A stretch of DNA of 47,799 bases from Candidatus Giovannonibacteria bacterium RIFCSPLOWO2_12_FULL_43_11c. GTDB lineage: Bacteria; Patescibacteriota; Minisyncoccia; JACPKW01; UBA11713. The position numbers and the translations under genes are program-made. Positions 6,955 to 28,510 of the stretch are shown in pieces (within the stretch, counting starts at the first letter, position 1; the number at the start of each line of letters is the position of its first letter). The notes under the pieces are model-generated. The model saw only the letters and a program-made list of their open reading frames with translations, was not told the origin of the DNA and made no database searches. The stretch spans positions 5,884 to 53,682 of the forward strand of contig MFIO01000014.1 in assembly GCA_001780775.1 (NCBI GenBank). Reading direction: 5' to 3'.

Positions 6955-8585
6955 TTTTTCTTTGAAATCACAGCTTTTATGAATTCTCTAAAAAGCGGAT
7001 GGGGATTTAGCGGGCGAGATTTAAATTCCGGATGAAATTGCGTGCCAAGAAAAAATGGATGGTCTTTCAATTCTATAATTTCAACCAGCCCCGATTCCGT
7101 ATTGATTCCGGATGTCACAAGTCCCTTTGATTCTAAAATACTTCGAAGCGCTTCGTTGAATTCGTAACGATGTCGATGCCGTTCATAAACTGTTCTTACT
7201 CCGTAAGCACGGCGCGCGATAGTTTTATCCTTGAGGCGGCAGGCATACGCTCCCAACCTCATCGTCCCCCCCATTTTCCCGGAAAAAACCTTCTCCTTCT
7301 GCTCCGCCATCAAATCAATCACGGGATATTTGGTCCTCGCGTTAACTTCCGTGGTATTCGCCCCCTTCATGCCCGCGACATTTCTCGCAAATTCTATCAC
7401 CGCCAACTGCATCCCGTAGCAAAGGCCGAGGTACGGCTTTTTATTTTTTCTGGCGAAAGTTATTGCTTTTATTTTTCCTTCAATACCTCTTGATCCAAAT
7501 CCTCCCGGGACTATTATTCCATCCAATTTTCCAAGCTCTTCTTTCATCCTCTCTGGATTTTTTTCATATGCTTCCGCGTCCAACCAAAAGATTTTTGGAA
7601 TTCTCCCAAATTGCCACGAAGCATGTTTGATTGCCTCGATAACGGAAATGTACGAATCAGAGAGAGTAAATTTACCTGTTCCGAAATATTTTCCAACAAT
7701 CCCAATGTTAACTTCCTTTTTTGAAAAAAGAGCTTTCCTGACCATTCTCGCCCATTCTTTCATATCGCGCTTCCCTTCTTTCATGTCGAATTTTTTCAAA
7801 ATTTTAGCGCCGAGTTTTTCTTTTTCTAAATTAAGGGGCACCTGGTAAATATTTTCTATATCAGGAGCGGAGATAACATCCTCCGGATGCACGTTGCAAA
7901 ACACGGAAAGTTTTTTCTTCCGCGGTTCGTCCAGGGGAACTTCGGCTCGGGCGATTATGAAGTCCGGCTGGATCCCCACGGAATTTAACGCGCGGACAGC
8001 GTGCTGCGTCGGTTTCGTTTTCATCTCTCCGATCTTTGTCGGTATCGGGAAATAGCTTATCAGCATGAATAAAACATCCTTCGGGGATTTCAGGTGCATC
8101 ATCCGAGCCGCTTCTAAAAATAAAATGTTTTCGTATTCCCCCGCGGTCCCTCCGATCTCAACTAAAACAAAATCGGCCTTTGATTTCCTGGCCGCTAATT
8201 TTAGTCTCCTTATAACTTCTTCTGGGACATGCGGAACGATTTGAACGCAATCCCCGTTATATTTCAAAGCCCTCTCTTTCTCTATAACAGAAAGATAAAC
8301 CGAACCGGAAGTCATGTAATTCTCCGAGAAAATGTTTTCGTCCAAAAATCTTTCGTAGTTTCCGATATCCTGGTCGGTTTCCATTCCGTCTTCAGTCACA
8401 AAAACTTCGCCGTGTTCGATTGGATTCATCGTGCCGGCGTCAACGTTAAGATACGGATCGATTTTTACGCAAGTTGTTTTATATCCCTTAGACTTTAAAA
8501 TCCTCGCCGTTGAAGCCGATGCAATCCCTTTGCCGATGCCGGACATCACTCCGCCAATTACAAAAATAAACCTTGGGCTGGGCAT
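6951..8585 (-). CDS. pyrG: CTP synthase
   Basis: 544 aa; FIFVIGGVMSGIGKGIASAS N-terminus, GlnGAT domain with PYLGLCYGMQLAVIEFARN. Confidence 0.98.
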   Translation of the reverse strand: MPSPRFIFVIGGVMSGIGKGIASASTARILKSKGYKTTCVKIDPYLNVDAGTMNPIEHGEVFVTEDGMETDQDIGNYERFLDENIFSENYMTSGSVYLSVIEKERALKYNGDCVQIVPHVPEEVIRRLKLAARKSKADFVLVEIGGTAGEYENILFLEAARMMHLKSPKDVLFMLISYFPIPTKIGEMKTKPTQHAVRALNSVGIQPDFIIARAEVPLDEPRKKKLSVFCNVHPEDVISAPDIENIYQVPLNLEKEKLGAKILKKFDMKEGKRDMKEWARMVRKALFSKKEVNIGIVGKYFGTGKFTLSDSYISVIEAIKHASWQFGRIPKIFWLDAEAYEKNPERMKEELGKLDGIIVPGGFGSRGIEGKIKAITFARKNKKPYLGLCYGMQLAVIEFARNVAGMKGANTTEVNARTKYPVIDLMAEQKEKVFSGKMGGTMRLGAYACRLKDKTIARRAYGVRTVYERHRHRYEFNEALRSILESKGLVTSGINTESGLVEIIELKDHPFFLGTQFHPEFKSRPLNPHPLFREFIKAVISKKK

Positions 8586-8614
8586 AAAATATTTGACCTA
8601 TTTTAGGATACCAC

Positions 8615-9067
8615 CTACAGGTCTAGCTTTTCAATACGCCTTTGATGCCGTCCCCCGCCAAAAGGTGTGGACAAGAAAATTTCAACCGCTTTTTTGGCCT
8701 CCTCCTCGGAAATTAGCCGTGCACCTAACGATAAAACGTTGGAATCATTATCTTGCCGGGCCAGTTTAACCGTCTCGAGCCCGCTATCCGGCGAACCGCC
8801 GTAGTACACCTCCGCACGGACGTGTTTGAAGCGATTCGCCTCAATCGCCTCCCCCTGCCCCGAGCCGCCGATGACAATACCTCTAGAATTTTCCGGATCT
8901 TTGGAAACGGCTTCCGCCACGAGTTTAATAAAATCCGGATAATCGTCTTCGGGATCAAGTTTAAAGGCACCTTTATCCTCAACTTCGTGCCCTTTTTCTT
9001 TGAGATAAGCTATGAGTTTACTTTTCAACTCAAACCCCGCGTGATCCGATCCAATATAGATTTTCAT
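8615..9067 (-). CDS. rpiB: ribose-5-phosphate isomerase B
   Basis: 150 aa; MKIYIGSDHAGFELKSKLIAYLKEKGHEVEDKG. Confidence 0.95.
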   Translation of the reverse strand: MKIYIGSDHAGFELKSKLIAYLKEKGHEVEDKGAFKLDPEDDYPDFIKLVAEAVSKDPENSRGIVIGGSGQGEAIEANRFKHVRAEVYYGGSPDSGLETVKLARQDNDSNVLSLGARLISEEEAKKAVEIFLSTPFGGGRHQRRIEKLDL

Positions 9068-9070
9068 AAA

Positions 9071-9337
9071 CTATTTATACGCTCCACCACGCCAATCAAT
9101 AACGTCGATGAAAATTGATGAGTTGTCAAAATTAAATTTTGCGATGATCCTAATCTCACCTTTTCTGATGCGATGGAATTCGTCCCATTTTTCCTTCATC
9201 TTTTTGATATCTATATTCACTTTCTCGCCTTGAAACTTTTTTATCGAAAGACTTAATAGTTCAAGAATGTCATCTTTTGGAATTCTATTTTGTTTTAAAA
9301 ATTTCTCCGATCGCGCTGAAAAATCTATCCGCCACAT
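9071..9337 (-). CDS. RelE/HigB-like toxin
   Basis: ORF track gives 9071..9382; internal ATG at 9337 (MWRIDFSARSEKFLKQNRIPKDDI...) overlaps the upstream stop as TAATG, so the shorter form is preferred. Confidence 0.7.
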   Translation of the reverse strand: MWRIDFSARSEKFLKQNRIPKDDILELLSLSIKKFQGEKVNIDIKKMKEKWDEFHRIRKGEIRIIAKFNFDNSSIFIDVIDWRGGAYK

Positions 9338-9531
9338 TACAGTTCTACTTGATAGCTTCGCGAGGCTTTGCGTGAAGGCCATTTGTAGAGCTTGACGATA
9401 TTTTTCTGTTCCGCTTCTGATACATAAGGGATTAAAAACGCGCCCAACTTTATCATCTGAGCATCCATAGCCTCTTTTACGCCTTCTTTAATCAAAAGTT
9501 TTATTTTTTTATCGTCTAATTTTAACGCCAT
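9337..9531 (-). CDS. putative antitoxin of the adjacent RelE-like toxin
   Basis: 64 aa; small ORF directly upstream of the toxin with a 1-nt overlap. Confidence 0.6.
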   Translation of the reverse strand: MALKLDDKKIKLLIKEGVKEAMDAQMIKLGAFLIPYVSEAEQKNIVKLYKWPSRKASRSYQVEL

Positions 9532-9533
9532 AT

Positions 9534-9605
9534 TTAGTTTATATCACAGCTTATAAAAGTTTTCAACTCAAACCCCGCGTGATCAGAACCAATATAGATT
9601 TTCAT
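9534..9605 (-). pseudogene. 5' remnant of rpiB (MKIYIGSDHAGFELKTFISCDIN*)
   Basis: 9560-9605 matches 9022-9067 at 44/46 positions; the two differences are synonymous (GGA/GGT, TCG/TCT); reading frame then hits a stop. Confidence 0.85.
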
Positions 9606-9612
9606 ATCTGAT

Positions 9613-9870
9613 TTACAAAAAAGGCCACAATATAATTTGCAAGATAATGTTAGATAAAGTTTTTTCAGGTTCAGAAAAGGCAGATACCAATCCTAATATT
9701 ATATACAAAACCGCAAGAACAATTAAGCCGCCGAGAAAAATCTTCTTTTTTGTCGCAATGAATAATACAAATGATATAAAAAATAAAACTGGAACAATGT
9801 AACCAATTCCAAAAATCAGATAAGCAAAGCTATCAAAGAAAGAAGAAATTGGAGATACTTGAGTTAGCAT
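9613..9870 (-). CDS. small membrane protein, hypothetical
   Basis: 85 aa, hydrophobic, 2-3 TM segments. Confidence 0.55.
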   Translation of the reverse strand: MLTQVSPISSFFDSFAYLIFGIGYIVPVLFFISFVLFIATKKKIFLGGLIVLAVLYIILGLVSAFSEPEKTLSNIILQIILWPFL

Positions 9871-9874
9871 AAAG

Positions 9875-10852
9875 TCATTTCAAATTCTGGCAAACCCTCC
9901 TCACATGCTCAACTAAAGTCGCTGTGTACCCGGCTTCGTTGTCGTACCAGGAGAAAACTTTTACGAGATCGCCCTGCAAAACTTGAGTTAAAGTCAAATC
10001 AATAATCGCGCCGTAGGGTTCACCAATAATATCAGAGGAAACAATCGGGTCTTCGGTGACCTTTAAACTTTTTGACCAACGCGGATCGCTTGCGGCTTTT
10101 TTGAAAACATTATTTATTTCTTCAACTGTCGTTTTCTTTTCGGTGATGACTGTCATTATAGAGAGCGAGCCGGTAAGCGTCGGCACTCTAACTGACTCCG
10201 CCTGAAATTTTCCTTCAAGCTCCGGAATGGATTGAATCACTGCTTCCATAGCACTGGTAGTTGATGGCACAATATTTGCGGCGGCGGCTCTCCCTCGCCT
10301 CGGGTCTTTTTCATCCGGCCCGTCAACCAATTTTTGGGTTGCCGTATATCCATGAACAGTCGTCATCGCCGCTTTTTTTACGCCGAAATTTTCTAAAATA
10401 ATTTTCATTGCAGGCGACACTGAATTCGTCGTGCAAGAAGCATTACAAGTTAACGGATTCTTATTTTTTGCAAAAATATCGTCATTAACTCCGATAAGCG
10501 CAGTAATCACGTCCCCTTTTGCTGGAGCCGTGATAACTACTCGCTTTGCGCCAGCATCCAAATGAGCTTTTGCTTTATCTGCAGTTGTAAAAAATCCAGT
10601 CGATTCAATAACAATATCAACGCCCAATTTCTTCCACGGGAGTTTCGCTGGGTCTCTTTCCGCCAAAAATTGGACTCCTTTCGGCTCTTTCAAATAACGG
10701 CCGTAAACAGAATCATATTTCAACAAATACATCAGTGTTTTTTCATCCGCCAAATCGTTTACGGCGACGATATCAAATTCCGACAATCCCCACGCCGCGC
10801 GAAAAAATGACCTCCCAATCCTCCCGAATCCGTTTATCACTATTTTTGTCAT
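9875..10852 (-). CDS. gap: glyceraldehyde-3-phosphate dehydrogenase
   Basis: 325 aa; INGFGRIGRSFFRAA, CNASCTTNSVSP active site, WYDNEAGY. Confidence 0.97.
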   Translation of the reverse strand: MTKIVINGFGRIGRSFFRAAWGLSEFDIVAVNDLADEKTLMYLLKYDSVYGRYLKEPKGVQFLAERDPAKLPWKKLGVDIVIESTGFFTTADKAKAHLDAGAKRVVITAPAKGDVITALIGVNDDIFAKNKNPLTCNASCTTNSVSPAMKIILENFGVKKAAMTTVHGYTATQKLVDGPDEKDPRRGRAAAANIVPSTTSAMEAVIQSIPELEGKFQAESVRVPTLTGSLSIMTVITEKKTTVEEINNVFKKAASDPRWSKSLKVTEDPIVSSDIIGEPYGAIIDLTLTQVLQGDLVKVFSWYDNEAGYTATLVEHVRRVCQNLK

Positions 10853-12626: not shown

Positions 12627-14813
12627 CTAGAAAGAAGTGAAAACATTGCTTATTATGTATGATTTTGTTTTGGCAAGTTTTTCGTAAATCGGCCGCATGA
12701 CTTCTTTGAAGCCGGAATCCCTTATTGAAATATTGAGAGTAATAACGAGCAGTCTCGGGCTCAAGTTAGACGTTTCTCCATGAATAGTGACTGTATATAG
12801 TCCGGAAGGCGTGTTGGGTGGAACGGTAATAGAGAAAGAGGAACCAGTGCTATATTCCTCCTCGGAGAGTATCGTATCGGAAAAATTTCCAACCGCGCCC
12901 GCAATCGCTGGATTAATATTTTCGAGGCTTAGCGTCACATCCTTATCAAAACACTCGCACGGAGGCAATGGAACAACGGTAATTTGAACCGTATTAGAGG
13001 TAACGGCCCCAGAACCGGAAATCGTCAAAAATAGAGAATCCGAATTTAGGGAATATAAATTAAAGTCTGGCGGTAATGTGCATTGCGATTCGTCGAATTT
13101 ACAAGTAGAAGCATCGTAACTTAATGATCCTCCTGTAAATCCGCGCGAAGAGCAAGTTGCCCCTCCCAAGCATTGGCTGGAAGGATTTCCTATTTCAGCC
13201 GCCGAAAGAGCGCGGTCGTAGATGCGAACATCGTCGAAGGAGCCTTCGAATTGATAACCGCCTTCAAGAAATCTCCCCAGCATTGAATGTGTGCATGTGT
13301 TATCTAGATTCCCGGATACGTCCCTGATTGCGTCTTGATTTCCATCAAGATAGAGAATCATCTGTGTTGAAGTCTTAACGCCAACAACATGATGCCATGT
13401 TCCTGCACTTACTGCAGTTGTTCCGTCAAGATCGGCAAATCCCAGACGAAAAGAGTAGGTTCCATTAGCCAGTAAATCAATATAGTAACAAGGGAATCTG
13501 CTGGCAGTATGCTTCTGCGCGCCAATCACATCCGCCTTTGCCCACATAGAAATAGTAATTTCATCGCCTGATATATCGAGATTCGAACCGGTTCCAAAAT
13601 CAACATAATCATCCTCCCCGTCAAAATGCAAAGCGCCACCAATCTTACCTGTAGTCCATGCTGGATCATAAGTGAGTACCCCCGTATTTCCGTTACCGGA
13701 AGAATCACTTGCCGTTGTTCCAGAGTCATCAAGCTTCCACCAGGCGACGGGATTTGTCGGTCCGGCATCACAATCTTCTCCTGCATCAATAACTCCATTG
13801 CCGCACAGCCCCTGTTGTTGACCGCTCACAAAATTAATATCAAAAGCAATAGACGCACCGTTGGGCAACAATTGAGGAATTGGCGGCGTCACGGAATCAT
13901 ATGTCGCGCCCGCAGGACCGCCACTCAAATAATTTAATGCGTAAGTTTCATCTGCTACAACATCTTCATAAGTAAAAGGTACGGAAGAATTACTGATGTC
14001 TCCTGATGGACCGGACAAAGTATAAGTTACGGCATTGCTTCCGCTTGCCGGCCACGGCTGGCCATTTAAAGTGGCCGTAACATAAATGCTGGTCGCAATA
14101 CCACTATAAAGTTCACTAACCTCTCCGGCCGAAAGCACACGGTTGTAGATGCGGACATCATCGATGGACCCCTTGAATAAATTGGCACCATTCGAGGCGC
14201 TTCCTATGGTTGTCCCCTGTATGCCAGATGAACCATAGCCACCTGCGCTGGAAATCGGATGGATTGTGCCATCAATATAAACCAAAAAATTTGAGTTTGT
14301 CGTGGCGCCTTGGCCATTGTATGTAACTGTAATATGGTGCCAGGCATCAGTCAGCGTCGCCAGGTCATCATCTGTTTTAATTGTTGTCCAATCGCTCGCC
14401 GAGCCCATTGAAAAACCGAGATAACTAGAGTCGGCAGAGAATAAGAAATGAAGTCCGGAGTTGGTATTTGTGCGTAAAAGAATTAAATCAGGGTAATTGC
14501 CTAATGCGGATGAATCCAGATAATACCATGCGCTCATAGTGAAAGGGCTTCCGGTATTGGCATATGCCGTTGTGCCAGCGACATCTACTCCATCATCCAC
14601 CCCGTCAAAACTCAACGCATTTGATCCGATTTTGCCAGCAACAAAACTTGGACCGCCGATAAGTGTTCCATTATTTATACCAGCGGAGTCATTGGCATTT
14701 CCATCAAACTTCCACCAGCCAACGAGGCCGGCTGTCACATCCGCGTGAGCCGGGCGGATAAATCCGCTCATTAAAAACAATGAAACAATGGCGAATTTTA
14801 GAAAGTTTTTCAT
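12627..14813 (-). CDS. secreted protein with two LamG/concanavalin-like domains, a split Cys-rich repeat and a C-terminal beta domain
   Basis: 728 aa; signal peptide; GLVGWWKFDGNANDSAG...GSIDDVRIYNRVLSAGEV and VAWWKLDDSGTTASDSSG...GSFDDVRIYDRALSAAEI; CGNGVIDAGEDCDAG. Confidence 0.88.
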   Translation of the reverse strand: MKNFLKFAIVSLFLMSGFIRPAHADVTAGLVGWWKFDGNANDSAGINNGTLIGGPSFVAGKIGSNALSFDGVDDGVDVAGTTAYANTGSPFTMSAWYYLDSSALGNYPDLILLRTNTNSGLHFLFSADSSYLGFSMGSASDWTTIKTDDDLATLTDAWHHITVTYNGQGATTNSNFLVYIDGTIHPISSAGGYGSSGIQGTTIGSASNGANLFKGSIDDVRIYNRVLSAGEVSELYSGIATSIYVTATLNGQPWPASGSNAVTYTLSGPSGDISNSSVPFTYEDVVADETYALNYLSGGPAGATYDSVTPPIPQLLPNGASIAFDINFVSGQQQGLCGNGVIDAGEDCDAGPTNPVAWWKLDDSGTTASDSSGNGNTGVLTYDPAWTTGKIGGALHFDGEDDYVDFGTGSNLDISGDEITISMWAKADVIGAQKHTASRFPCYYIDLLANGTYSFRLGFADLDGTTAVSAGTWHHVVGVKTSTQMILYLDGNQDAIRDVSGNLDNTCTHSMLGRFLEGGYQFEGSFDDVRIYDRALSAAEIGNPSSQCLGGATCSSRGFTGGSLSYDASTCKFDESQCTLPPDFNLYSLNSDSLFLTISGSGAVTSNTVQITVVPLPPCECFDKDVTLSLENINPAIAGAVGNFSDTILSEEEYSTGSSFSITVPPNTPSGLYTVTIHGETSNLSPRLLVITLNISIRDSGFKEVMRPIYEKLAKTKSYIISNVFTSF

Positions 14814-18111: not shown

Positions 18112-19266
18112 TCAACTACCAGTAAAAGCTTCTTCAGACTTCTTCAGTTGCACGCGAAATTTTTCCTCGTCGAATTTTAGCAGTTCCTGTGCTACCCACC
18201 CGCTCATGAGCGTGGCCTTTGTATTCTCCCCTTTTTTAAAATTGCTTAAGAATCCGTAATCCCCGTCAAACTTAACTTCTTCTTCACTATCCCACAAATG
18301 CAAAACAACGCTACGCATCAAAGCGAGGGCGTCATCGCGATAGCGACTATTCTGATTATTTTCCATTTCCGCCAATATAAGAAGTGAGTCAATAATTTTC
18401 GCGAAATTTTGGATGTCCAATCGCCTTCGAAGCTCTCGCAGATGAACCTTCAAATTAGCTTTATCGTAAAAATCTTTGGCTGCTATCAAATATTTTTCAT
18501 CTTTGGTCGCAGAATAAGCAGGGAGGTATACAGACCAAACAGCCTGAAAAGAACCTACTTTGACTATAAAGCCGTTGTCTTCATAGAGAGGTTTTTTTTG
18601 ATCGGTAGATTCAATGCCCCTATTTAGAACTTCGTCCGCAACATGGCGCAATCGATCAATATATTTCCTCTCGGAAGTAACTTCGTAAAGCATCGCGAGT
18701 TTATTTCCGTAGTTTCCGCCAACCGCGTCTTTTAATGGCACTTTATCATCTAAAAATCGCCCGGAGACAGCAAGCATTGCATCCAAGTATTTCTTGTCTC
18801 CGGTATCTTTATAATAACGATAGAGCGGGAAAAAGTTCCACTCGCAGTAATTTTTATCGAGTTCATGGCACAATTTTATAGACACTTCCAAAGCCTTATC
18901 AGCCTTTTCCTTATACGTATTGTCGCCCGTTCTTTTTGTTAATTCGTAATAGGCCAAAATAATCTGCCCGGTATGCGGTGGCTCTTCGATCGGCGCTTCG
19001 CGGCACTTCTTCTCTTCTCTAGATTCCGGGTCGCATTGATAGCGAATTACGAACATCCCGTTTGGCTTCGAACTCATGTCCAGAAATTGCGCCGTTCTTT
19101 GTGCAATTTCAACTCCGCTTAGCTCTAAAAGAGGTTTCCTTTCGTCCTTGCCCGCAAAAAAATCATACAAAACATAAATTAAAACCAGAGAAAACACTGC
19201 TAACAGGGCTAAAAAAAACTTATTTTTATTGTCTCGAATATTTCCTACTTCCATCTTAATTTTCAT
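18112..19266 (-). CDS. membrane-anchored putative alpha/alpha-toroid (six-hairpin-like) protein, paralog A
   Basis: 384 aa; N-terminal TM; PPHTGQIILAYYELTKRTGDNTYKEKADKALE, YCEWNFFPLYRYY, TLMSGWVAQELLKF. Confidence 0.6.
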   Translation of the reverse strand: MKIKMEVGNIRDNKNKFFLALLAVFSLVLIYVLYDFFAGKDERKPLLELSGVEIAQRTAQFLDMSSKPNGMFVIRYQCDPESREEKKCREAPIEEPPHTGQIILAYYELTKRTGDNTYKEKADKALEVSIKLCHELDKNYCEWNFFPLYRYYKDTGDKKYLDAMLAVSGRFLDDKVPLKDAVGGNYGNKLAMLYEVTSERKYIDRLRHVADEVLNRGIESTDQKKPLYEDNGFIVKVGSFQAVWSVYLPAYSATKDEKYLIAAKDFYDKANLKVHLRELRRRLDIQNFAKIIDSLLILAEMENNQNSRYRDDALALMRSVVLHLWDSEEEVKFDGDYGFLSNFKKGENTKATLMSGWVAQELLKFDEEKFRVQLKKSEEAFTGS

Positions 19267-19281
19267 CCATTATAAAAAACA

Positions 19282-19539
19282 CTAACCGCCACAACCTGTT
19301 TTTGAAGGTGGAGGACTGCTCCCTGTATCAGCCATGGCTTCATTTACTATTACGGCACGTAAAAACTCGGAAGATTTTTTGTCCACATCCGTTAAGCTAG
19401 TAAAAAGCTTTCTTTTATACGCACTAAAGGTATCTATTAAAAACTTTCCCCCAAAGCGATACGCCAACGTTGGAACTGCCAAAAACACAAAAATCAAGAC
19501 AAGCGACAGATCGGCCTTTATAAGTTTAGTGTTTCGCAT
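19282..19539 (-). CDS. small TM protein with C-terminal ...SSPPPSKTGCGG
   Basis: 85-aa ORF in the same operon between the two toroid-like paralogs; ends in Cys-Gly-Gly-stop. Confidence 0.6.
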   Translation of the reverse strand: MRNTKLIKADLSLVLIFVFLAVPTLAYRFGGKFLIDTFSAYKRKLFTSLTDVDKKSSEFLRAVIVNEAMADTGSSPPPSKTGCGG

Positions 19540-19558
19540 AGATAAAGTTTAAGATATT

Positions 19559-20728
19559 TCACGGACTCTGTCCATCCGTAGGGGGTTCAAAACTATCGTC
19601 GAGCATTCTAAGATATAGCTGTATTAACCAACCGCTATAGAACGGAGACTTGTTATTCTTGCTTTTATTTGCAGCGTGTAAAAACCCATAATCCGCATTA
19701 AACTGTCTGTTGTATTGCGAGTCCCATCTTTCATTAAGGATATGTTGGCCAATCGCCTTGGCCTGCGCATAAAATACCTCCGGGTCGTCATCGGGTTCAT
19801 CGTGGGATGCTAAAGCCTCAGGCACAGTGCGCATACTACCTTGCAAATCGCCATAATGCGGGTTTCGACCTTGAGCAATTTCAGTAAGATCTAAAAGAAC
19901 TTCCCACGCCTTAGCAAGATTTCCAATGCCCAGCCCAGCGCCTGAATCAAATTTGCCAAGATGTTCGGTAATGTGCGACTTCTCAAAAAAATCCTTAACT
20001 GCGTTAAGATATATTACATTCTGAGTTTCGGCGTAAGCTGGGAGGTAAACGCTCCAAATGATATGGATATCATTATTCCTTACTACATAATAATCGCTGG
20101 TTACAAAAAACTCTAAGCCGCGAGAGAATTTCCCGTCTAATATATCTTTTGCTGTTTTATCAAGCTTATCAAGATATTTTTTTTCTCCCGTAACATGGTA
20201 AAGCGCGGCCAGTTTAATGCCGTTGTTGTTATTCACGGTATTTTCCAGCGATTCATTCAAAAACTTATCCGCAGATTTTAACATAGCTTTCTTAAAACGA
20301 TCGTCCTTGAAATCCATGTAGAAATCGTGGAGTGCGAAGTAATTCCATTCGCAGTAATCAGAATTTTTCTCGCAAGCATCTAACACAAAACCCATGGCGC
20401 GATCAGCTTTTTCTTTATATTTTGGATCACTGGTTGTTTTCCATAAATGATAATACGCGCGGAGAATTTGCCCAGTATGCGGAGGCCCGGACGATTCGAT
20501 GGCTTTGCAAGCGCTATCATTTTTTGTACACTCGTATAATAATTCAAAACTGCCGTCTGGTTTCAAAGTTTTATCAAGAAATAAGGCAGTTTTTTTGGCA
20601 ATTTCCAGCCCCGTTAGACGCTTTCCCGCTTTGACCCCAATAAATTCCGGCAAATATACCGCCGCGTAATACATCAGGGCGATCGCGAAAACAGCCGAAG
20701 CCGCCAAAATTATATTCTTCTTCATCAT
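19559..20728 (-). CDS. membrane-anchored putative alpha/alpha-toroid protein, paralog B
   Basis: 389 aa; PPHTGQILRAYYHLWKTTSDPKYKEKADRAM, YCEWNYFALHDFYMDFKDDRFKKAM, FYSGWLIQLYLRM; clearly paralogous to 18112..19266. Confidence 0.6.
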   Translation of the reverse strand: MMKKNIILAASAVFAIALMYYAAVYLPEFIGVKAGKRLTGLEIAKKTALFLDKTLKPDGSFELLYECTKNDSACKAIESSGPPHTGQILRAYYHLWKTTSDPKYKEKADRAMGFVLDACEKNSDYCEWNYFALHDFYMDFKDDRFKKAMLKSADKFLNESLENTVNNNNGIKLAALYHVTGEKKYLDKLDKTAKDILDGKFSRGLEFFVTSDYYVVRNNDIHIIWSVYLPAYAETQNVIYLNAVKDFFEKSHITEHLGKFDSGAGLGIGNLAKAWEVLLDLTEIAQGRNPHYGDLQGSMRTVPEALASHDEPDDDPEVFYAQAKAIGQHILNERWDSQYNRQFNADYGFLHAANKSKNNKSPFYSGWLIQLYLRMLDDSFEPPTDGQSP

Positions 20729-20750
20729 AAAATTATAAATCTTTTAGGTC

Positions 20751-22022
20751 TCAAAACCAAACAAAAATATCGCCATGCGCCTCAAATGCTTGGACTTTCT
20801 TAACGTCGAATTGTATCAAACCTTCATCTATAAAATGCTTGAGAGGAAAGTTTCTTTTAATAATCCATCTGTTCGCTATATGATCCGGATCTATAAAGCT
20901 TTTTGAGTTCGCCTTATCATCCAAATATTCCAATGAAATCCTAAGAGTAGCTTTGTTTTTTTGAGAGAAAAGCTCCGTAACATGAATCTGAAATTGAAAA
21001 TCTACATGGTGAATAGAAAATAAAACGTTCTTTAACTGGGCGATGTCCAGCTTGATTCCCTCAAAATGAAACTCCTTGTCTACGCTACCGACTACCCTTA
21101 GGAATTTTTTGCCGCAAGCGCAAATCTCGTCTTCCCAAATACCAAGATCAGAAGTCTTATATCTCACAAGGGGCAAAAATCCGTGTTTTTTTATTGAGCT
21201 TACGATAATGTTGCCGGGTTTGCGGATAGCTCCTCCTTCGCGCAACAATTCAACGAACATATCATCATATAAATGAAATAGATTGGGATCCTCGTACGGC
21301 GCCTTTCTGCATCTGTAGCCAACAATATTGCCGCCGATAATGCGGTAAGCATTTTCGACAACGGCATGCGGGTAAAAATTACTAAGGTTTTGCAAGCGGA
21401 AAAAAGAAAGATGTCCAGTCGGGACAAAAATGAATTTGATGTATTCCCCAGCGCCTGTAATATCCATTTCTTTCCCCAAATTCAGCGCATTTTGATAAGA
21501 CGCAATAAGGCTGTCGATTTTAAGATAATCAGCAAGCACCGCTGTGTATTTCATGGCATGAGGATCACCGATTATATGTAATAATTTAAGCTTACGGCAA
21601 ACTCTAGCTAGCCTATTGGTAAATGAGCTTGGCGTCAAAGTAATCGCCCCACTTATATTCCTTTCCGAAAGAATTTCGAGCGTCTTCTGGGAAGCACTTC
21701 CGTATTCATCTGAAACTTTAGCGAAATTCAAAAAGCCGTAGCGCTCCTCTATTGTTAAGAGACCAGAAAAATTATCCTTCCAAGATCCAGGACCGTGAAT
21801 TGATTCGTAATGCATCCTGATTGCCATGTCAATATTATCGTTCGTCAGTACGGGAATTTTTTCTATATCAATAAAGTTCTCAATAGACAATTTCCAATCA
21901 AAGCCTGCTTGCTTGTACTTATCTCTATAATAGGAATTTTCATCGCCTGCAACGCTTTTCAAGAAATCATTAAAAAAGCGTAATGCCGATTGGCGTTCTT
22001 CGTCTGTATATATTTCATTCAT
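20751..22022 (-). CDS. PaaK/CapK-like adenylate-forming-fold protein with degenerate phosphate loop
   Basis: 423 aa; LVRYKTSDLGIWEDEICACGKKFLRVVGSVDKEFHFEGIKL typical of the C-terminal half; TSGTT position reads LTPSSFTNR. Confidence 0.65.
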   Translation of the reverse strand: MNEIYTDEERQSALRFFNDFLKSVAGDENSYYRDKYKQAGFDWKLSIENFIDIEKIPVLTNDNIDMAIRMHYESIHGPGSWKDNFSGLLTIEERYGFLNFAKVSDEYGSASQKTLEILSERNISGAITLTPSSFTNRLARVCRKLKLLHIIGDPHAMKYTAVLADYLKIDSLIASYQNALNLGKEMDITGAGEYIKFIFVPTGHLSFFRLQNLSNFYPHAVVENAYRIIGGNIVGYRCRKAPYEDPNLFHLYDDMFVELLREGGAIRKPGNIIVSSIKKHGFLPLVRYKTSDLGIWEDEICACGKKFLRVVGSVDKEFHFEGIKLDIAQLKNVLFSIHHVDFQFQIHVTELFSQKNKATLRISLEYLDDKANSKSFIDPDHIANRWIIKRNFPLKHFIDEGLIQFDVKKVQAFEAHGDIFVWF

Positions 22023-22060
22023 TTTTATATATCCTTAATTTCTATTATACCAAAATTAAT

Positions 22061-22936
22061 TTATCCCAAACGAAAAGAAGGAATACCGCAACTGCACGAG
22101 CCAGCCACAGAATACAATAGTATATTAGTTTGATAGCGTATCATTGGGCAAGCTTGAAGACGAGAAGAAGTTATAACGGCTATGCCGGGCTCTATAAAAA
22201 CATCATTGAAGGGGTGGAATACAAAATCCATGTCCCGGTTTGATTCAGGGCATTTAAAAGCTAATCGCCCCGTTTCAGGGAGGCTTAAGATATAGTCAAT
22301 AATGATGCCTTCAGGCCAGTGCCAGTCGGTATAACAAAATTGAGAATCAATAAGCGTTATGCTTTTTAATGGGAGTTTCGCTCTAATTAAGTCGTGCTTA
22401 TAGTGATCTATCGAATATCTATCGAGAAAAATGCTATCCGCCTCGTATTGCTTCGATACAGAAAATATAAGTTCAGAATTCGGGATTTCTCCAATCAATG
22501 GGATAAGATTCTGCTCATAAATATAGACGCAATGTTCTAATGCTTCATATATGTCCCCCATCAGAACTAGAGGGCGTTTACCGTTTATCGGCAGACCACT
22601 CTTTTTTATCTCATCAACAGTCCTGTGCAATAAAAAAGACCTTTCTGCTTCTGGAGACTTAATCAGTTTATATACGGCGGGACCTTCACCATAAATTCTG
22701 TCGTGGTAAAACGTTAAGGCAAGCTCCTGCCTCGTCACAATAGGCAGCTCTCTTAAAAAATCGTAATTCAAATTGTCTGGCAAATCCGAAAAACTTATTT
22801 TTAATCCTTTTTTCTTATATTTTTCACGATAAAAATCTGCGGGTGCCGACAGAACCGTCTTTAAAAGGTTCGAAAACTGACTTAAAAAAACTTTTTCCGA
22901 ATTATTCGTTGAGTTGCAAATCCTAGTGTCAAGCAT
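22061..22936 (-). CDS. short PaaK-like protein lacking the C-terminal lid domain
   Basis: 291 aa; ends ...ACPMIRYQTNILLYSVAGSCSCGIPSFRLG*, i.e. stops just after the RYxT...CxCG motif. Confidence 0.5.
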   Translation of the reverse strand: MLDTRICNSTNNSEKVFLSQFSNLLKTVLSAPADFYREKYKKKGLKISFSDLPDNLNYDFLRELPIVTRQELALTFYHDRIYGEGPAVYKLIKSPEAERSFLLHRTVDEIKKSGLPINGKRPLVLMGDIYEALEHCVYIYEQNLIPLIGEIPNSELIFSVSKQYEADSIFLDRYSIDHYKHDLIRAKLPLKSITLIDSQFCYTDWHWPEGIIIDYILSLPETGRLAFKCPESNRDMDFVFHPFNDVFIEPGIAVITSSRLQACPMIRYQTNILLYSVAGSCSCGIPSFRLG

Positions 22937-22964
22937 TTGAAATTGGGTTAAGCTTCGTTATAAT
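22937..22964 (+). promoter_or_regulatory. candidate sigma70-type promoter for the plus-strand small ORF
   Basis: TTGAAA (22937-22942), 16-nt spacer, TATAAT (22959-22964); ATG at 22979 implies a very short 5' leader. Confidence 0.45.
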
Positions 22965-22978
22965 TATATATATTGAAT

Positions 22979-23143
22979 ATGCCTTACTACATCCTCAAAA
23001 AACTATATGCAATAATGACTGATCTCCTCGCCAAATGGCGAGGCCATTTTAATAAGGATGACGAAACTGAATCACAGCCCACACCCAAAAAAGAAAATCC
23101 GAACGCAAAACTTTTCATAAGCTGTGGCGGTTTCATAGAATAG
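22979..23143 (+). CDS. 54-aa small protein MPYYILKKLYAIMTDLLAKWRGHFNKDDETESQPTPKKENPNAKLFISCGGFIE
   Basis: Manual translation; not in the ORF track (<60 aa); fills almost exactly the 210-bp gap between two minus-strand genes and is preceded by a promoter-like sequence. Confidence 0.55.
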   Translation: MPYYILKKLYAIMTDLLAKWRGHFNKDDETESQPTPKKENPNAKLFISCGGFIE

Positions 23144-23146
23144 ATT

Positions 23147-24511
23147 TCATACAATTTTTCTTAAAACAAGCCGCTTGTTTTTTGGCGGAAAATCTTCAAC
23201 AAAATCCAATTTAAGGGGTAAAAACTTATTTTTCTCAACCAAGCTTGCGATGGTATCCGTGGGAGTTATAAATAAATTTTTACTGACAAAATTTGAAATA
23301 AATTTGCTCTTATTATGTTTTTCAGACTTATCGCTAAACTTTAACTTAAGAAGGAGCTCTCCAAGTACGCCATCTCCAACAAGAACCTCGCGAGCCTCTC
23401 CCTCCCAATCATCTATCCAATCACGAATAGCATCTAATGACAATACTCTTTCTATCTCACTTCGCATAATAACAGCGCCTCCGCATTTAATATAATCAAA
23501 ATCTTTCCGACCCGCTAGAGCAAAGCTCCAAAAAGCGCCGCACTTGCATTTTTTGAACGATGCCTTTGCAATGTCCCCTGTTCGATACCTAAGAAGCGAA
23601 AATAGAGCATCATCTCTGTCAGAAAAGCGCGTACAAACAACCTCCCCGTATCCATCTTCGTTCACATCAACTATTTCAATTATTGCACTTTCTACCGGAT
23701 GATAAACATTTACGCCTTCTTCCTGTTGCAAATGGAAACACGATGCGCCAATCATCCCGGCTTCGACTGAGCTGTACTGACTATCCAAACTGATTGAATT
23801 AACTCCTTGTTTGCCATAAAATTTCAACAAGTTATCGAGTTGTGGCTTACTTACAAAATCCCCAGTCAATGCCATGCCTTTCACGGATGAAATTAGAGAA
23901 AATTCGTCATCCAAGAAAATTGAAGAAAAATTTACCAAATGCGTTGGGAAAGCGAAAATAAAGTCCGCATTAAAATCCGCAATCGCATATTTTGCGCTGG
24001 CGTTAAGTTGGTTTGGTAATAATGTAAATTGATGGCACTTGCCCCCATTTCTTTTGCTTCCCGAGATTGCTACAAGCAACCCGCGCAAATTATGGGAGAA
24101 TGACCCGGTAATCCTTAAAGACCTTTGAGGCGCCAAAAAAAATTGAGGAATTTCATTTATAAGAAGTACTGGCTCCGTAGATTTTGTTGTTCCAGATGTA
24201 GTGCGGAGAATATATTTGTATTTATAGGCATCTCCTCCAGCGCTGTTTTCAAAATCGTCCCATAATGTTGCGAAGCCTATATCTATGAAATCTTTTTTCG
24301 TCAAGAAAGGAATCTCCTTCCAACGTTCCCAATTAAAGTCCGAAAAGGCCGGCTGAAATTTTTTGTTCACAAAATGACTACGCCAAAATTTTAGCTTATC
24401 AAGTTTTTCCAACGCCGAACCAACGAACTCTCGCTCTTTTTCAAGTTCCTCATGGGTTTTCAAAATTATTTCGCTTGGCATACTTATTCCACGACGAATA
24501 ACTCGCCCCAA
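23147..24511 (-). CDS. PaaK-like adenylate-forming enzyme with intact TSGTT loop
   Basis: 454 aa; ILRTTSGTTKSTEPVLL; LLRYRTGDIAKASFKKCKCGAFWSFALAGRKDFDYIKCGG. Confidence 0.75.
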   Translation of the reverse strand: MGRVIRRGISMPSEIILKTHEELEKEREFVGSALEKLDKLKFWRSHFVNKKFQPAFSDFNWERWKEIPFLTKKDFIDIGFATLWDDFENSAGGDAYKYKYILRTTSGTTKSTEPVLLINEIPQFFLAPQRSLRITGSFSHNLRGLLVAISGSKRNGGKCHQFTLLPNQLNASAKYAIADFNADFIFAFPTHLVNFSSIFLDDEFSLISSVKGMALTGDFVSKPQLDNLLKFYGKQGVNSISLDSQYSSVEAGMIGASCFHLQQEEGVNVYHPVESAIIEIVDVNEDGYGEVVCTRFSDRDDALFSLLRYRTGDIAKASFKKCKCGAFWSFALAGRKDFDYIKCGGAVIMRSEIERVLSLDAIRDWIDDWEGEAREVLVGDGVLGELLLKLKFSDKSEKHNKSKFISNFVSKNLFITPTDTIASLVEKNKFLPLKLDFVEDFPPKNKRLVLRKIV

Positions 24512-25851
24512 TCCTTCGCCCGGTACGAAGGTCCTAAAAATATTTCTCGTAGGTCCTCTTTTCCGACATCCTTCCTTATATCATCTAGGGTTTTATATAT
24601 TGAGCCTCCGGCGAATCTACTCCCGACAAAATTGGGCCTTTCTTCCAATCTCCAAACGCTACGATTAAAAGGTAGGAAAAAAAGGCTAGGATAACTCCGC
24701 ACGATAAACACATAAGAAAGAGGATTCAATACGCCGCTTGCCGCTTCAATCTTTGCCATACGCAAAAAAGTTTGCTCATGAATAACTCCGTTCCAGAAAA
24801 ACAAGTCCAAAAGGCTTGATTTTTGGCTTAAAACAAGAAACTTGTCTAAAAATTTTCGCCTCCAATGCAAGTCGGCGATAGAAGCCAAATCTGCCTGATA
24901 CGTAAAATCTCGAACCGAATAAAAAGTTGTTGCCGATTGATGCCAAAATCTGATACCTCTTTTGATTAGCGGTTCATAGATTGAAATACCCTCATGAAAT
25001 TTGTACTTGGCTGGATCGATTTCAAGAAAAAAATATTCATCTGCGAGAGTGATACGCAAAAATTTTTTATCCGCTTCAGGTGATTTCAAAATGTACAGAT
25101 AAAATTGATGATTTTTAGGCCGACCGTCAAAATGTGAAAGTGTATAATAAATCGGGCCGTATCGTTCTAAAATACTCGGCATAACATCTTCCTCGAGCGA
25201 AAGTATGAAGTCTGATTCCGCTGTTAGTTTAGGCCCGACAAGCTCGAAAGGAATATAATCCATGCGAGGAACAGTTTCCAGTAAATCTTGATCAACCTTA
25301 ACATTGTCTTTTTTTGAAGCAATCGCCGAATTAAGCAATAACTGCAAGCGAAACAAAATCTCTGCTCGTAAGATTTTCCCATTCTCAGCCAGTAAATCAA
25401 TGGACTTTAGAACATCACTTAAATTTACAGAGTACTTATTATAAATATACTCCGGATTACTGCGTTCAAGACGCTCCATTCGTATAAAAGCAAGATGGGC
25501 TTTTTTATAAGAAGAAACGTCACCTTCCCATGAAGCGAGAGCGTGCCAATAGCTATTAATAAGTCTTCTGGCCGAAGCGGCAGAAGGTTCTGCCAGAAAT
25601 ATTCTCCGCCTTTTTTCACACTCGATAAAACTACGCAAGAAATTAAATGGGTGAAGAGTTTTTAAAAAAGAATGGCGAAAATGAAACCAATATTCTTTCT
25701 TGGTTTCTCGGTATAATTTTTCTAAACGCGAAGTGGTTTGATAAAGTTCTCCAATGGCCGCTGACGCATTTTCCAAATCCATTCCTTCTGCGGCAAAAAG
25801 AGGGTCGCCTTTTGTTTTAATATAAAATTCCTGAAGTGACGGTGGAATCAT
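24484..25851 (-). CDS. hypothetical protein, no family recognised
   Basis: 455-aa ORF overlapping the next gene by 28 nt; mostly helical-looking N-terminus. Confidence 0.6.
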   Translation of the reverse strand: MIPPSLQEFYIKTKGDPLFAAEGMDLENASAAIGELYQTTSRLEKLYRETKKEYWFHFRHSFLKTLHPFNFLRSFIECEKRRRIFLAEPSAASARRLINSYWHALASWEGDVSSYKKAHLAFIRMERLERSNPEYIYNKYSVNLSDVLKSIDLLAENGKILRAEILFRLQLLLNSAIASKKDNVKVDQDLLETVPRMDYIPFELVGPKLTAESDFILSLEEDVMPSILERYGPIYYTLSHFDGRPKNHQFYLYILKSPEADKKFLRITLADEYFFLEIDPAKYKFHEGISIYEPLIKRGIRFWHQSATTFYSVRDFTYQADLASIADLHWRRKFLDKFLVLSQKSSLLDLFFWNGVIHEQTFLRMAKIEAASGVLNPLSYVFIVRSYPSLFFLPFNRSVWRLEERPNFVGSRFAGGSIYKTLDDIRKDVGKEDLREIFLGPSYRAKDWGELFVVE

Positions 25852-25888
25852 TTATTTACTTTACATTAATTTATTAACTTTAAAAAGA

Positions 25889-25925
25889 ATACCACACTGC
25901 CTATGACAATATGACAATGTGGTAT
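25889..25925. promoter_or_regulatory. inverted repeat ATACCACA-21nt-TGTGGTAT containing a tandem ATGACAAT
   Basis: Perfect 8-bp arms at 25889-25896 and 25918-25925 in the gap upstream of the 455-aa gene. Confidence 0.4.
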
Positions 25926-25953
25926 TATCGTAAAACTGAATCTCCTTTCTTCG

Positions 25954-27384
25954 CTATGAAAGCGACTTGAAATCGAATGGTCTTTTGTTAGTAAGGCCGC
26001 TAAGTAGCGCCGCTCCAAGTGTAATGCTTATTGGAACAAGCGCGCCAACTGATGAGACTGTGGAATTCTTTACAATCGAACCGTACACGAATAACGGAAC
26101 TCCGATGGCAATACCGAGGAGTATGCCTCCGAAAGTAAACCTTGAAGAAGGTCGCGGCCAAAATAGGGACAAGACCGTGGGAACAAGAAGAGAAGATCTT
26201 AAAACTCCCACCAAAAGGATCAAATAAAGGAGCTGGATTGTCGGGATAAGCGCGATCGACATGCCGACAAGGATGAGAACGGCCATAGCGCTTCTTGACG
26301 CAATCAAAATAGCGCGATCGGAAGCGTTAGGCCGAAAAGAGCGGAAGACATCCACGGCGCCTATCGAACTTATCGCGGCAAGCGCGGAACTTCCCGCTGC
26401 CACAAGCCCGGCAAGCACCATCAGAGTAAAGCTAATTACCCCTATATCGGAAAGCGCTCCAATAGCCATAGAGAATCCAGCAAGCTGGGGATTTTGAACT
26501 AATGTCTGCAGATTTTTGTTTGCAGCCAAAAATCCCAAGGCTCCCAGCATTATTGGCACAATAGCAAAGATTAATCCCCCAAGAAGAAATGCCCTCCTGC
26601 TAATGCCTTCCTTCATTGAGAAAGCCCTTTGCCATTGTTGCTGGTCAATCATGATGCCGGATATTAACGACACGCTGACTGGAACCCCAAATGTCCAAGC
26701 GACAGTCGGATTAAATAGATCAGAAAAGGTGCCGCTTTTCCCGCCAATCCCTGAAATCAAAGCCGAAATGCCTCCCCTTTCCGCAATCACAAAAGGAACA
26801 ATCCAGAAAACAACGACGGCTATGAAGCAAGCCTTGATTACGTCTTCCACGAGCGACGAACGTATACCCTTAAGAACGCTCAATGATACCATCATGCCGC
26901 CCAAAATCAAGATCAGCAACTGCTTGGAAATCCCCATCACCAAATTCAGCATCAGGAGCGCCGCAGTCAAATTGAAAATGATCGCGTAGCTCTGAACGAT
27001 GAATATAGTGGCGACATACAGAACCCGCATTTTTCGGTCAAAGCGGCGCCCTATAAATTCCGGGAGGGTAAAGCCCTGATTGAAAACTTTACGCATTCTC
27101 GCCGCCATGAAGGAAAAAAGAATCAAAGCAAGCGCATTCGGGAAAGTAAACCAAAAAAGACCCGGGATTCCTTGCTCGAAAGCCTTTTGCGATGAAACAA
27201 AAAGCGCTCCTGCCCACACCCAAGCAACAGCAGTCGTTACCGCCCCAAGCAAAAGACCTACATTCCTCTCTGAAACCAGGAAAGAAGCGGGGGTTGCCCT
27301 CGCTCCTGAAACCGCACGAATGGAAATCCAAGAAAAAAACCAGAAACCTGCCAAAATCCAATACCCGCTGATCGTGTCAACCAT
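25954..27384 (-). CDS. sodium:solute symporter (SSS) family transporter
   Basis: 476 aa; ~13 TM; RNVGLLLGAVTTAVAWVWAGAL, TLPEFIGRRFDRKMR; SD-like GGGGAGGG upstream. Confidence 0.85.
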   Translation of the reverse strand: MVDTISGYWILAGFWFFSWISIRAVSGARATPASFLVSERNVGLLLGAVTTAVAWVWAGALFVSSQKAFEQGIPGLFWFTFPNALALILFSFMAARMRKVFNQGFTLPEFIGRRFDRKMRVLYVATIFIVQSYAIIFNLTAALLMLNLVMGISKQLLILILGGMMVSLSVLKGIRSSLVEDVIKACFIAVVVFWIVPFVIAERGGISALISGIGGKSGTFSDLFNPTVAWTFGVPVSVSLISGIMIDQQQWQRAFSMKEGISRRAFLLGGLIFAIVPIMLGALGFLAANKNLQTLVQNPQLAGFSMAIGALSDIGVISFTLMVLAGLVAAGSSALAAISSIGAVDVFRSFRPNASDRAILIASRSAMAVLILVGMSIALIPTIQLLYLILLVGVLRSSLLVPTVLSLFWPRPSSRFTFGGILLGIAIGVPLFVYGSIVKNSTVSSVGALVPISITLGAALLSGLTNKRPFDFKSLS

Positions 27385-27532: not shown

Positions 27533-28510
27533 ATGCCGTATAGCGATTTGAGATCGTATTTGGAAGTTCTCGAAAAATGCGGAAAGTTGCGCCGTATCAG
27601 AAAAGAGGTTGATGCAAGTTGGGAGATAGCTGCGGTATGCCGCCAGCTATTCTACAAATTCCAGCCTAAGGAGCGCCCAGCCATTATTTTTGAAAATCCC
27701 AAGGGGTATGGCATTCCGGTTGCCGCAGGAACGGCGGCCGCTTCTCCCGAAATTTATCAGATCGGGATGGAGGCGAATTCGCTTGAAGAGATCAATCAGA
27801 AATGGGATCATGCGCTCGAAAATTTGATTCCACCGCGAATCGTTAAGGAAGCATCGTGCAAGGAAAATATTCTTCTTGGCGAGAAAATTGACTTGTCTAT
27901 ATTCCCTGTGCCAACCTGGACGCCTGGGCTGGATGCCGGACCGTATATAACTTCCGCGCTTGTTATCACAAAGGATCCGGAAACTGGCACATACAACATC
28001 GGAACCCACCGGATGATGATAAAAGGGAAAGACGTTACGGGAATGCACATCGGGAGCGCTCAAGACGCAGCGCGGCACATCGAGTGGTATGAAAAACAAG
28101 GCAAGCCCGCGCCCGTTGCAATCGCTCTCGGAACCGATCCCAGTCTCTGTTATGTCTCGACGACCCGCACCCACGAGCACGTTGACGAATTCTTCCTAGC
28201 CGGCGGACTTAGAGGCGAGCCGGTTGACCTGGTCCCGTGCGAAACAATTCCGCTTCTTGTCCCCGCGACAGCTGAAATTATTCTTGAGGGAGAAATTCCC
28301 GCCGGGACACGGGAAATGGAAGGACCCTTTGGAGAATATACCGGCTATATGAGTCCGAGCGGTATGCGCAGAATCTTTCGGATAAAATGTATTACTTTTC
28401 GCAACAATCCGATTTATCACGCGTTTATCAGCCAGATGCCGCCGTCGGAATCGAGCTGCATCCGGAAAATCGGGAACGAGCGCATAATTTTCCATACCTC
28501 CTCATCATAA
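27533..28510 (+). CDS. UbiD family decarboxylase, C-terminally truncated
   Basis: 325 aa; EGPFGEYTGYMSP, FISQMPPSESSCIRKIGNE then abrupt stop; strong SD AAGGAGGGG. Confidence 0.8.
   Translation: MPYSDLRSYLEVLEKCGKLRRIRKEVDASWEIAAVCRQLFYKFQPKERPAIIFENPKGYGIPVAAGTAAASPEIYQIGMEANSLEEINQKWDHALENLIPPRIVKEASCKENILLGEKIDLSIFPVPTWTPGLDAGPYITSALVITKDPETGTYNIGTHRMMIKGKDVTGMHIGSAQDAARHIEWYEKQGKPAPVAIALGTDPSLCYVSTTRTHEHVDEFFLAGGLRGEPVDLVPCETIPLLVPATAEIILEGEIPAGTREMEGPFGEYTGYMSPSGMRRIFRIKCITFRNNPIYHAFISQMPPSESSCIRKIGNERIIFHTSSS

Follow-up and report, generated by a model that had tools for sequence, protein, structure and literature searches.

Cysteine-tailed small proteins recur beside PaaK-like proteins and an orphan protein family in scattered Patescibacteria

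This report concerns a run of genes in a 47,799-nucleotide stretch of contig MFIO01000014.1 (the window) from Candidatus Giovannonibacteria bacterium RIFCSPLOWO2_12_FULL_43_11c, whose genome comprises 796 kb in 35 contigs. An initial annotation had proposed that the run, on the minus strand from 27384 to 18112, holds an undescribed system of small proteins tailed with Cys-Gly-Gly (CGG), PaaK-like adenylating enzymes, paired toroid-like proteins and an SSS-family transporter, and its gene order, coordinates and lengths proved correct when checked on the sequence. It had also placed two CGG small proteins in the run, which is true of one of 85 amino acids (aa); the second open reading frame (ORF), which encodes a 54-aa peptide, sits instead on the plus strand, where it occupies the 210-base gap separating the genes for the 454- and 291-aa proteins. 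The features of the locus are the following:

25954..27384, minus strand: 476-aa SSS-family solute symporter (PF00474, 60.9 bits against a Pfam cut-off of 22.8)
24484..25851, minus strand: 455-aa orphan protein, the cytoplasmic version of the orf455 family (assigned from relatives in other loci and from counts of transmembrane helices and cysteines)
23147..24511, minus strand: 454-aa PaaK-like adenylate-forming enzyme of the system PaaK clade; its gene overlaps that of the 455-aa protein
22061..22936, minus strand: 291-aa shortened PaaK paralogue, without the C-terminal domain
20751..22022, minus strand: 423-aa degenerate PaaK paralogue; P-loop, TGD and A10 Lys gone, Zn-type C/H/CxCG retained
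19559..20728, minus strand: 389-aa membrane-anchored toroid-like protein, a window-specific accessory (similarity to the 384-aa paralogue)
19282..19539, minus strand: 85-aa membrane-anchored protein with a transmembrane-like N-terminus and the C-terminus SKTGCGG, which may be a divergent tail-family member
18112..19266, minus strand: 384-aa membrane-anchored (alpha/alpha)6 toroid, a window-specific accessory (C5-epim_C match; structure model)
22979..23143, plus strand: 54-aa cysteine-tailed peptide ending KLFISCGGFIE, without a transmembrane helix (alternative TTG start at 22973)
22937..22964, plus strand: sigma-70-like promoter TTGAAA-16-TATAAT (11/12 consensus matches), ending 14 bases before the ATG of the 54-aa ORF

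The initial annotation had pointed to the identical nucleotides that encode CGG in the two small genes. They are indeed present, but they are weak evidence alone, as the window contains 3 copies of TGTGGCGG, with 0.68 expected. When the phylum was searched with the 423-aa protein, three PaaK-like proteins came up in one stretch of genome G195 (locus L013). The same locus encodes a 91-aa protein ending DCLFVGCGGFF and a 584-aa relative of the window 455-aa protein (E 3e-14). A profile of the two orf455 rows added genomes G492, G518 and G583, with cysteine-tailed small ORFs in each. Scanning GTDB contigs with a PaaK alignment then brought in loci under the labels Sungbacteria, Moranbacteria, Nomurabacteria and Adlerbacteria, and loci from two further bacteria. 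Relatives had been sought from the 454-aa protein too, but a single-sequence scan of genome contigs with it was empty. In total, related loci were found in ten other assemblies (Daviesbacteria, Curtissbacteria, Sungbacteria, Nomurabacteria, Adlerbacteria and others), and the PaaK-like clade is present in all those used and the orf455 family in all except L036. The comparison covers the loci other than L039, which was not resolved, and includes L035, a 3-kb fragment that carries the orf455 family and no clear tail ORF.

Wherever a homologous locus offers enough sequence, a cysteine-tailed small ORF adjoins the PaaK-like clade and, except in L036, the orf455 gene as well. The initial annotation had proposed to look for such a recurrence and had named beforehand a lack of co-occurrence across homologous loci as the result that would count against it; it was co-occurrence that we found. 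The original observation is partly confirmed, and comparison with other genomes places it above chance; its interpretation is partly supported, for the core of the locus. Among 333 sampled genomes of the phylum, only two carry orf455, namely the window's own and G195, and the system is therefore rare (about 0.6% of sampled genomes) and spread across distant lineages. Searches of plasmids with orf455 and of viruses with PaaK yielded no copies. Several generic PaaK loci (L016-L018, L041-L044 and L046) were set aside, having neither orf455 nor a cysteine-tailed ORF.

The small proteins of the outside loci are 60-95 aa long, mostly have an N-terminal membrane anchor, and end in the tail [FYL]x[GW]C[GN]G(F/V/I/L)(F/Y) or something near it. 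The outside tails are CLFVGCGGFF, CLFIGCGGFF, CLFIGCGDFFQ, CIFTGCSQFFF, CLYVGCNGFTY, YLYVGCNGFF, VLFAGCGGFF, NFPGCNSIL, VYYVGCGGLF, VYQIWCGGIY, VYNIWCGGVF and IYYVWCGGVY, to be compared with LFISCGGFIE (54-aa) and TGCGG (85-aa) in the window. Thus, a tail that literally ends in CGG, as first described, is not the rule, and elsewhere one finds CGGFF, CNGFF, CGGVY and similar endings. All 14 tails have the cysteine, as the set was built on it; it is fifth from the C-terminus in 9/14, sixth in 4/14 and third in one, the window 85-aa protein. Nearly all anchored peptides carry extra cysteines, and the tail cysteine of the window 54-aa peptide, which has no helix, is its only one. In L025, L026, L028 and L032, as in the window, peptide genes and adjacent PaaK or orf455 genes are encoded on different strands. 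No curated family (Pfam, NCBIfam, PADLOC) matched the peptide.

Among small ORFs, 10 of 1056 from the positive loci fit the strict tail pattern, compared with none of 1493 from control loci (433 kb) and none of 1071 from the reversed positive loci. Given that the pattern was written after the tails had been seen, its positive count is partly circular, and the independent test was a position matrix built only from tails of other genomes, with the window left out. With this matrix, the 54-aa ORF ranked first of 636 window ORFs at 19.6 bits, the best of 5,800 control ORFs reaching 12.3. The 85-aa ORF ranked second at 10.3 bits, inside the control range; it is therefore only a possible member of the tail family, and its membership is weakly supported. 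The exact C..GFF pattern in DNA hit 51 of the 333 genomes, nearly always as noise, and served as a negative control; of the 61 matches, the sole anchored small ORF next to PaaK and orf455 among the contexts read was that of G195.

The PaaK-like proteins belong with the ANL-fold phenylacetate-CoA (coenzyme A) ligases (PDB 4r1l, 2y27; TIGR02155, NF041878, FlxY NF053551), with which most system members share the P-loop SGTT, RYKTGD, the Zn-type C/H/CxCG and a C-terminal Lys. As a profile they align to solved PaaK proteins (PDB 4r1l, E 2.4e-31), and their matches to the NCBIfam PaaK, FlxY and F390 models are above chance. They differ from these families in falling far under the cut-offs (26-63 bits for the PaaK models, against 646 and 700), in forming their own Patescibacteria clade and in being linked to cysteine-tailed peptides and orf455; with scores below the curated equivalog cut-offs, they are not PaaK equivalogs and do not qualify as phenylacetate-CoA ligases. 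In a tree, the system PaaKs split from 11 generic PaaK-like proteins (94/79; 89% of bootstrap trees), although long branches leave it unsure where exactly the window copies belong. The adenylation motifs (P-loop, RY(K/R)TGD and the catalytic Lys A10) are kept in most homologues. Thus, the three window proteins proposed as PaaK-like are PaaK relatives by profile, but only the 454-aa protein is intact, with the P-loop TSGTT, RYRTGD and the C-terminal Lys, and the 423- and 291-aa proteins lack this motif set. The 291-aa short form has a counterpart in Sungbacteria (L034:17128-17967, 43% identity), which makes it a conserved form and not a recent pseudogene. In L036, the system PaaK gene overlaps at its end with an apolipoprotein N-acyltransferase-like gene (8143-9738).

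The 455-aa protein has no sequence match in Pfam, NCBIfam, PADLOC or the PDB. Its structure model (predicted local distance difference test, pLDDT, 74; predicted template modelling score, pTM, 0.78) was compared with PDB folds, and nothing was found at E below 0.5. All 12 anchored members have an N-terminal membrane helix and four shared cysteines, whereas the unanchored copies (that of the window and that of Sungbacteria, L034:14751-16055) have neither the helix nor those four cysteines. Since the peptide and orf455 of the window are both unanchored, the two seem to share a compartment, and we suggest from these predicted features that both work in it. In L026, a 906-aa protein (7896-10616) joins an orf455 domain to an extended N-terminal part that is hydrophobic and probably multi-pass.

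Taken as a whole, these comparisons make us highly confident of a conserved, sporadic Patescibacteria gene system in which a cysteine-tailed small protein is accompanied by one to three PaaK-like proteins of their own clade and, except in one complete locus, by orf455. We found no description of such a system in the open-access literature, and no PADLOC match (known anti-phage defence) for the peptide, PaaK or orf455. The system appears to be categorically new, with only its PaaK, transporter and toroid parts in known families, and what follows about its chemistry is what we infer from sequence.

The tail cysteine is probably a site of chemical attachment or of ring closure. That the small proteins may be substrates or carriers modified at the CGG end, as the initial annotation had suggested, is still the leading hypothesis. 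A clue to its partner may come from four loci (L013, L025, L026 and L028) that encode an ATP-binding cassette (ABC) permease, an ATPase and NMT1-type solute-binding proteins. They resemble NMT1/SsuA-type ABC importers, from which they differ in that the solute-binding proteins are 1:1 with PaaK genes beside peptide genes (3:3 in L013, 1:1 in L025, 2:2 in L026 and 2:2 in L028). PaaK and solute-binding genes are often convergent neighbours that overlap by a few bases or nearly do so. The window has an SSS symporter, whose proposed identity was upheld by its Pfam score, but its role as a part of the system was not, as no other system locus has an SSS transporter and the four related loci carry the ABC importer in its place.

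The 1:1 count points to a small acid, taken up by the importer, as the substrate of the PaaKs, and the invariant tail cysteine suggests the destination of that acid once activated. We thus tentatively favour a pathway in which the transporter would import a carboxylic acid, the PaaK-like enzyme would turn it into an acyl-adenylate, and the acyl group would move, directly or via CoA, onto the tail cysteine in thioester linkage. The small protein would then be dedicated to carrying or displaying the acyl group, and orf455 might bind or process the tail once it is loaded. For most lineages this would happen outside the membrane, for the window version within the cell. In keeping with this pathway, no complete related locus has the PaaK clade without an adjoining tail, and cysteine is at -5 or -6 except in the window 85-aa protein. 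There is also a precedent for such logic, in which an ANL-type ligase activates an acid that forms a thioester on one cysteine of a small protein: p-coumaric acid:CoA ligase promotes the attachment of p-coumarate to Cys69 of photoactive yellow protein (PMC9664959). The peptides described here differ from photoactive yellow protein in having no PAS domain and in carrying the cysteine in a C-terminal tail, on which the thioester is only proposed.

Several points weigh against this acyl-carrier pathway. We infer both the acylation of the tail cysteine and its acid substrate, and the importer is absent from the window and from L032, L034 and the Adlerbacteria and Nomurabacteria loci as fetched. 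Given that most tails are predicted to lie outside and the PaaKs have no signal sequences, loading would have to precede export. Furthermore, the peptide count does not follow the PaaK count (L013 has one peptide and three PaaKs), and L036 has a PaaK and a divergent tail protein with no orf455 within 18 kb. The motif survey covered exact or narrow patterns, and tail proteins outside the system may escape it.

An alternative that we consider nearly as probable is that the PaaK-like proteins belong to an ordinary ligase pathway. They would convert acids, imported or made, into CoA thioesters destined for a metabolite or a surface molecule, and the tail would be only a docking tag or a disulfide partner of orf455. 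Phenylacetate-CoA ligases are the nearest profiles and structures, peptide numbers follow orf455 numbers better than PaaK numbers, and the extra cysteines of nearly all anchored peptides and the four of anchored orf455 fit disulfides. The neighbours would also suit such a pathway, as they include, each in a single locus, a dehydroquinate synthase, a thiamine pyrophosphate enzyme, an arylsulfotransferase and sulfatase-like proteins, together with the toroids and a shortened UbiD-family gene in or beside the window locus. What it leaves unexplained is the near-invariant cysteine tail at the extreme C-terminus, which is retained even in the window peptide that has no other cysteine.

We regard as unlikely that the system makes a ribosomally synthesized and post-translationally modified peptide (RiPP) of the thiolactone type, in which the PaaK-like enzyme would adenylate the peptide's own C-terminal carboxylate, the tail cysteine would close a ring of 5 or 6 residues, and the ring would be cut from the anchor as a signal or toxin. 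As in a RiPP system, every complete locus does pair a conserved cysteine-tail core with a neighbouring enzyme of the PaaK clade, whose modification of the peptide is putative. In the staphylococcal Agr system (AgrD/AgrB), the autoinducing peptides (AIPs) have a cysteine followed by four residues, the last of them bulky and hydrophobic. The tails described here are laid out alike, with cysteine fifth from the end in nine and sixth in four of 14 and bulky hydrophobic last residues, as in the five-residue AIP layout (PMC12250964). The system differs from Agr in that its precursors end 5-6 residues from the cysteine, without the AgrD-type C-terminal recognition region, and in that an ATP-using enzyme is present; no AgrB was found among the Pfam matches of the neighbours scanned. 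The ThiF-like proteins MccB, GrcB and EnfB use ATP to activate the carboxylate of a precursor peptide, and in the case of GrcB cysteine then attacks to give a thiolactone (PMC12250964), but their fold is ThiF/E1 as against ANL here. Other RiPPs have been reported to be encoded in bacteria of the Candidate Phyla Radiation (PMC8939145). Nevertheless, PaaK numbers are matched by solute-binding proteins and not by peptides, a ring is impossible in the window 85-aa protein, which ends at CGG, and we identified no RiPP recognition domain, peptidase or peptide exporter and, in the literature search, no precedent for a PaaK-fold RiPP enzyme.

Finally, that CGG-tailed short ORFs were simply drawn from noise near unrelated enzymes, as the mild enrichment of TGTGGCGG alone and the mostly spurious C..GFF matches in Patescibacteria might suggest, seems extremely improbable with no strict-pattern hit in control or reversed ORFs and a window ORF above all 5,800 control ORFs, so that the cross-genome comparison contradicts it for the plus-strand ORF, the 85-aa ORF being still a candidate only.

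The computed evidence does not confidently separate the acyl-thioester, thiolactone and ligase-pathway explanations. Whether we are dealing with a new class of ribosomal peptide system, in which an ANL (PaaK-fold) enzyme would modify the short C-terminal cysteine tail of a membrane-anchored peptide by acyl-thioester or thiolactone formation and an orphan-fold partner would read or release the tail at the surface, seems to us evenly balanced. Patescibacteria have tiny genomes, and their means of acting on neighbouring cells are largely unknown. A rare but recurrent set of activating enzymes, sometimes an importer, and a surface-anchored cysteine-tail protein is thus an expressible candidate for signal, toxin or acyl-carrier chemistry, and if it is true that a PaaK-like enzyme acts on the peptide, the ANL fold would join the enzymes that modify ribosomal peptides.

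The paired toroids were also proposed as components of the system. The 384-aa protein scores above the Pfam cut-off for C5-epim_C (26.1 against 23.3), and its structure model (pTM 0.74) matches GH88, GH76 and epimerases in the PDB (best 3wiw, E 4.7e-7; template modelling score about 0.5), according to which its predicted fold is an (alpha/alpha)6 toroid near GH88, GH76 and sugar epimerases. The 389-aa protein is 39% identical to it, with weak GH88 and GH76 profile matches. The fold was thus modelled for one protein and holds for the other by similarity, but their membership of the system was not borne out, as toroids are in no system locus outside the window, and a toroid search of genome contigs gave one weak match besides the window. 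The UbiD-family (aromatic acid decarboxylase) gene at 27533-28510 (plus strand) of the window is divergent from the SSS gene and encodes only 325 aa; its N-terminal and Rift-related domains match Pfam well, and the usual C-terminal part is absent.

Other observations concern the surroundings of these loci. Sulfatase-family-like proteins without the CxPxR formylglycine motif, seemingly with Thr or Ser instead, are encoded at L026:14804-16210, L034:124-2881 and L038:1759-4751. Runs of secreted-looking proteins of 186-250 aa, several of which end in VKKG(E/Q)YLFEGYEK or similar, occur in L037, L038, L040 and L045, and there was no Pfam match for the one member checked. The same four loci contain tandem arrays of an anchored family of 310-500 aa (17 entries, two of which are the same gene) with invariant His and Cys (HxxxH, CxHxxGH), for which we found no Pfam or PDB match; some members have an apparent N-terminal cupredoxin-like stretch. 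Close to the system, the window (12627-14813, minus strand), L013 (3660-5669) and L028 (9560-10345) encode large surface proteins of the LamG or DUF2341 type.

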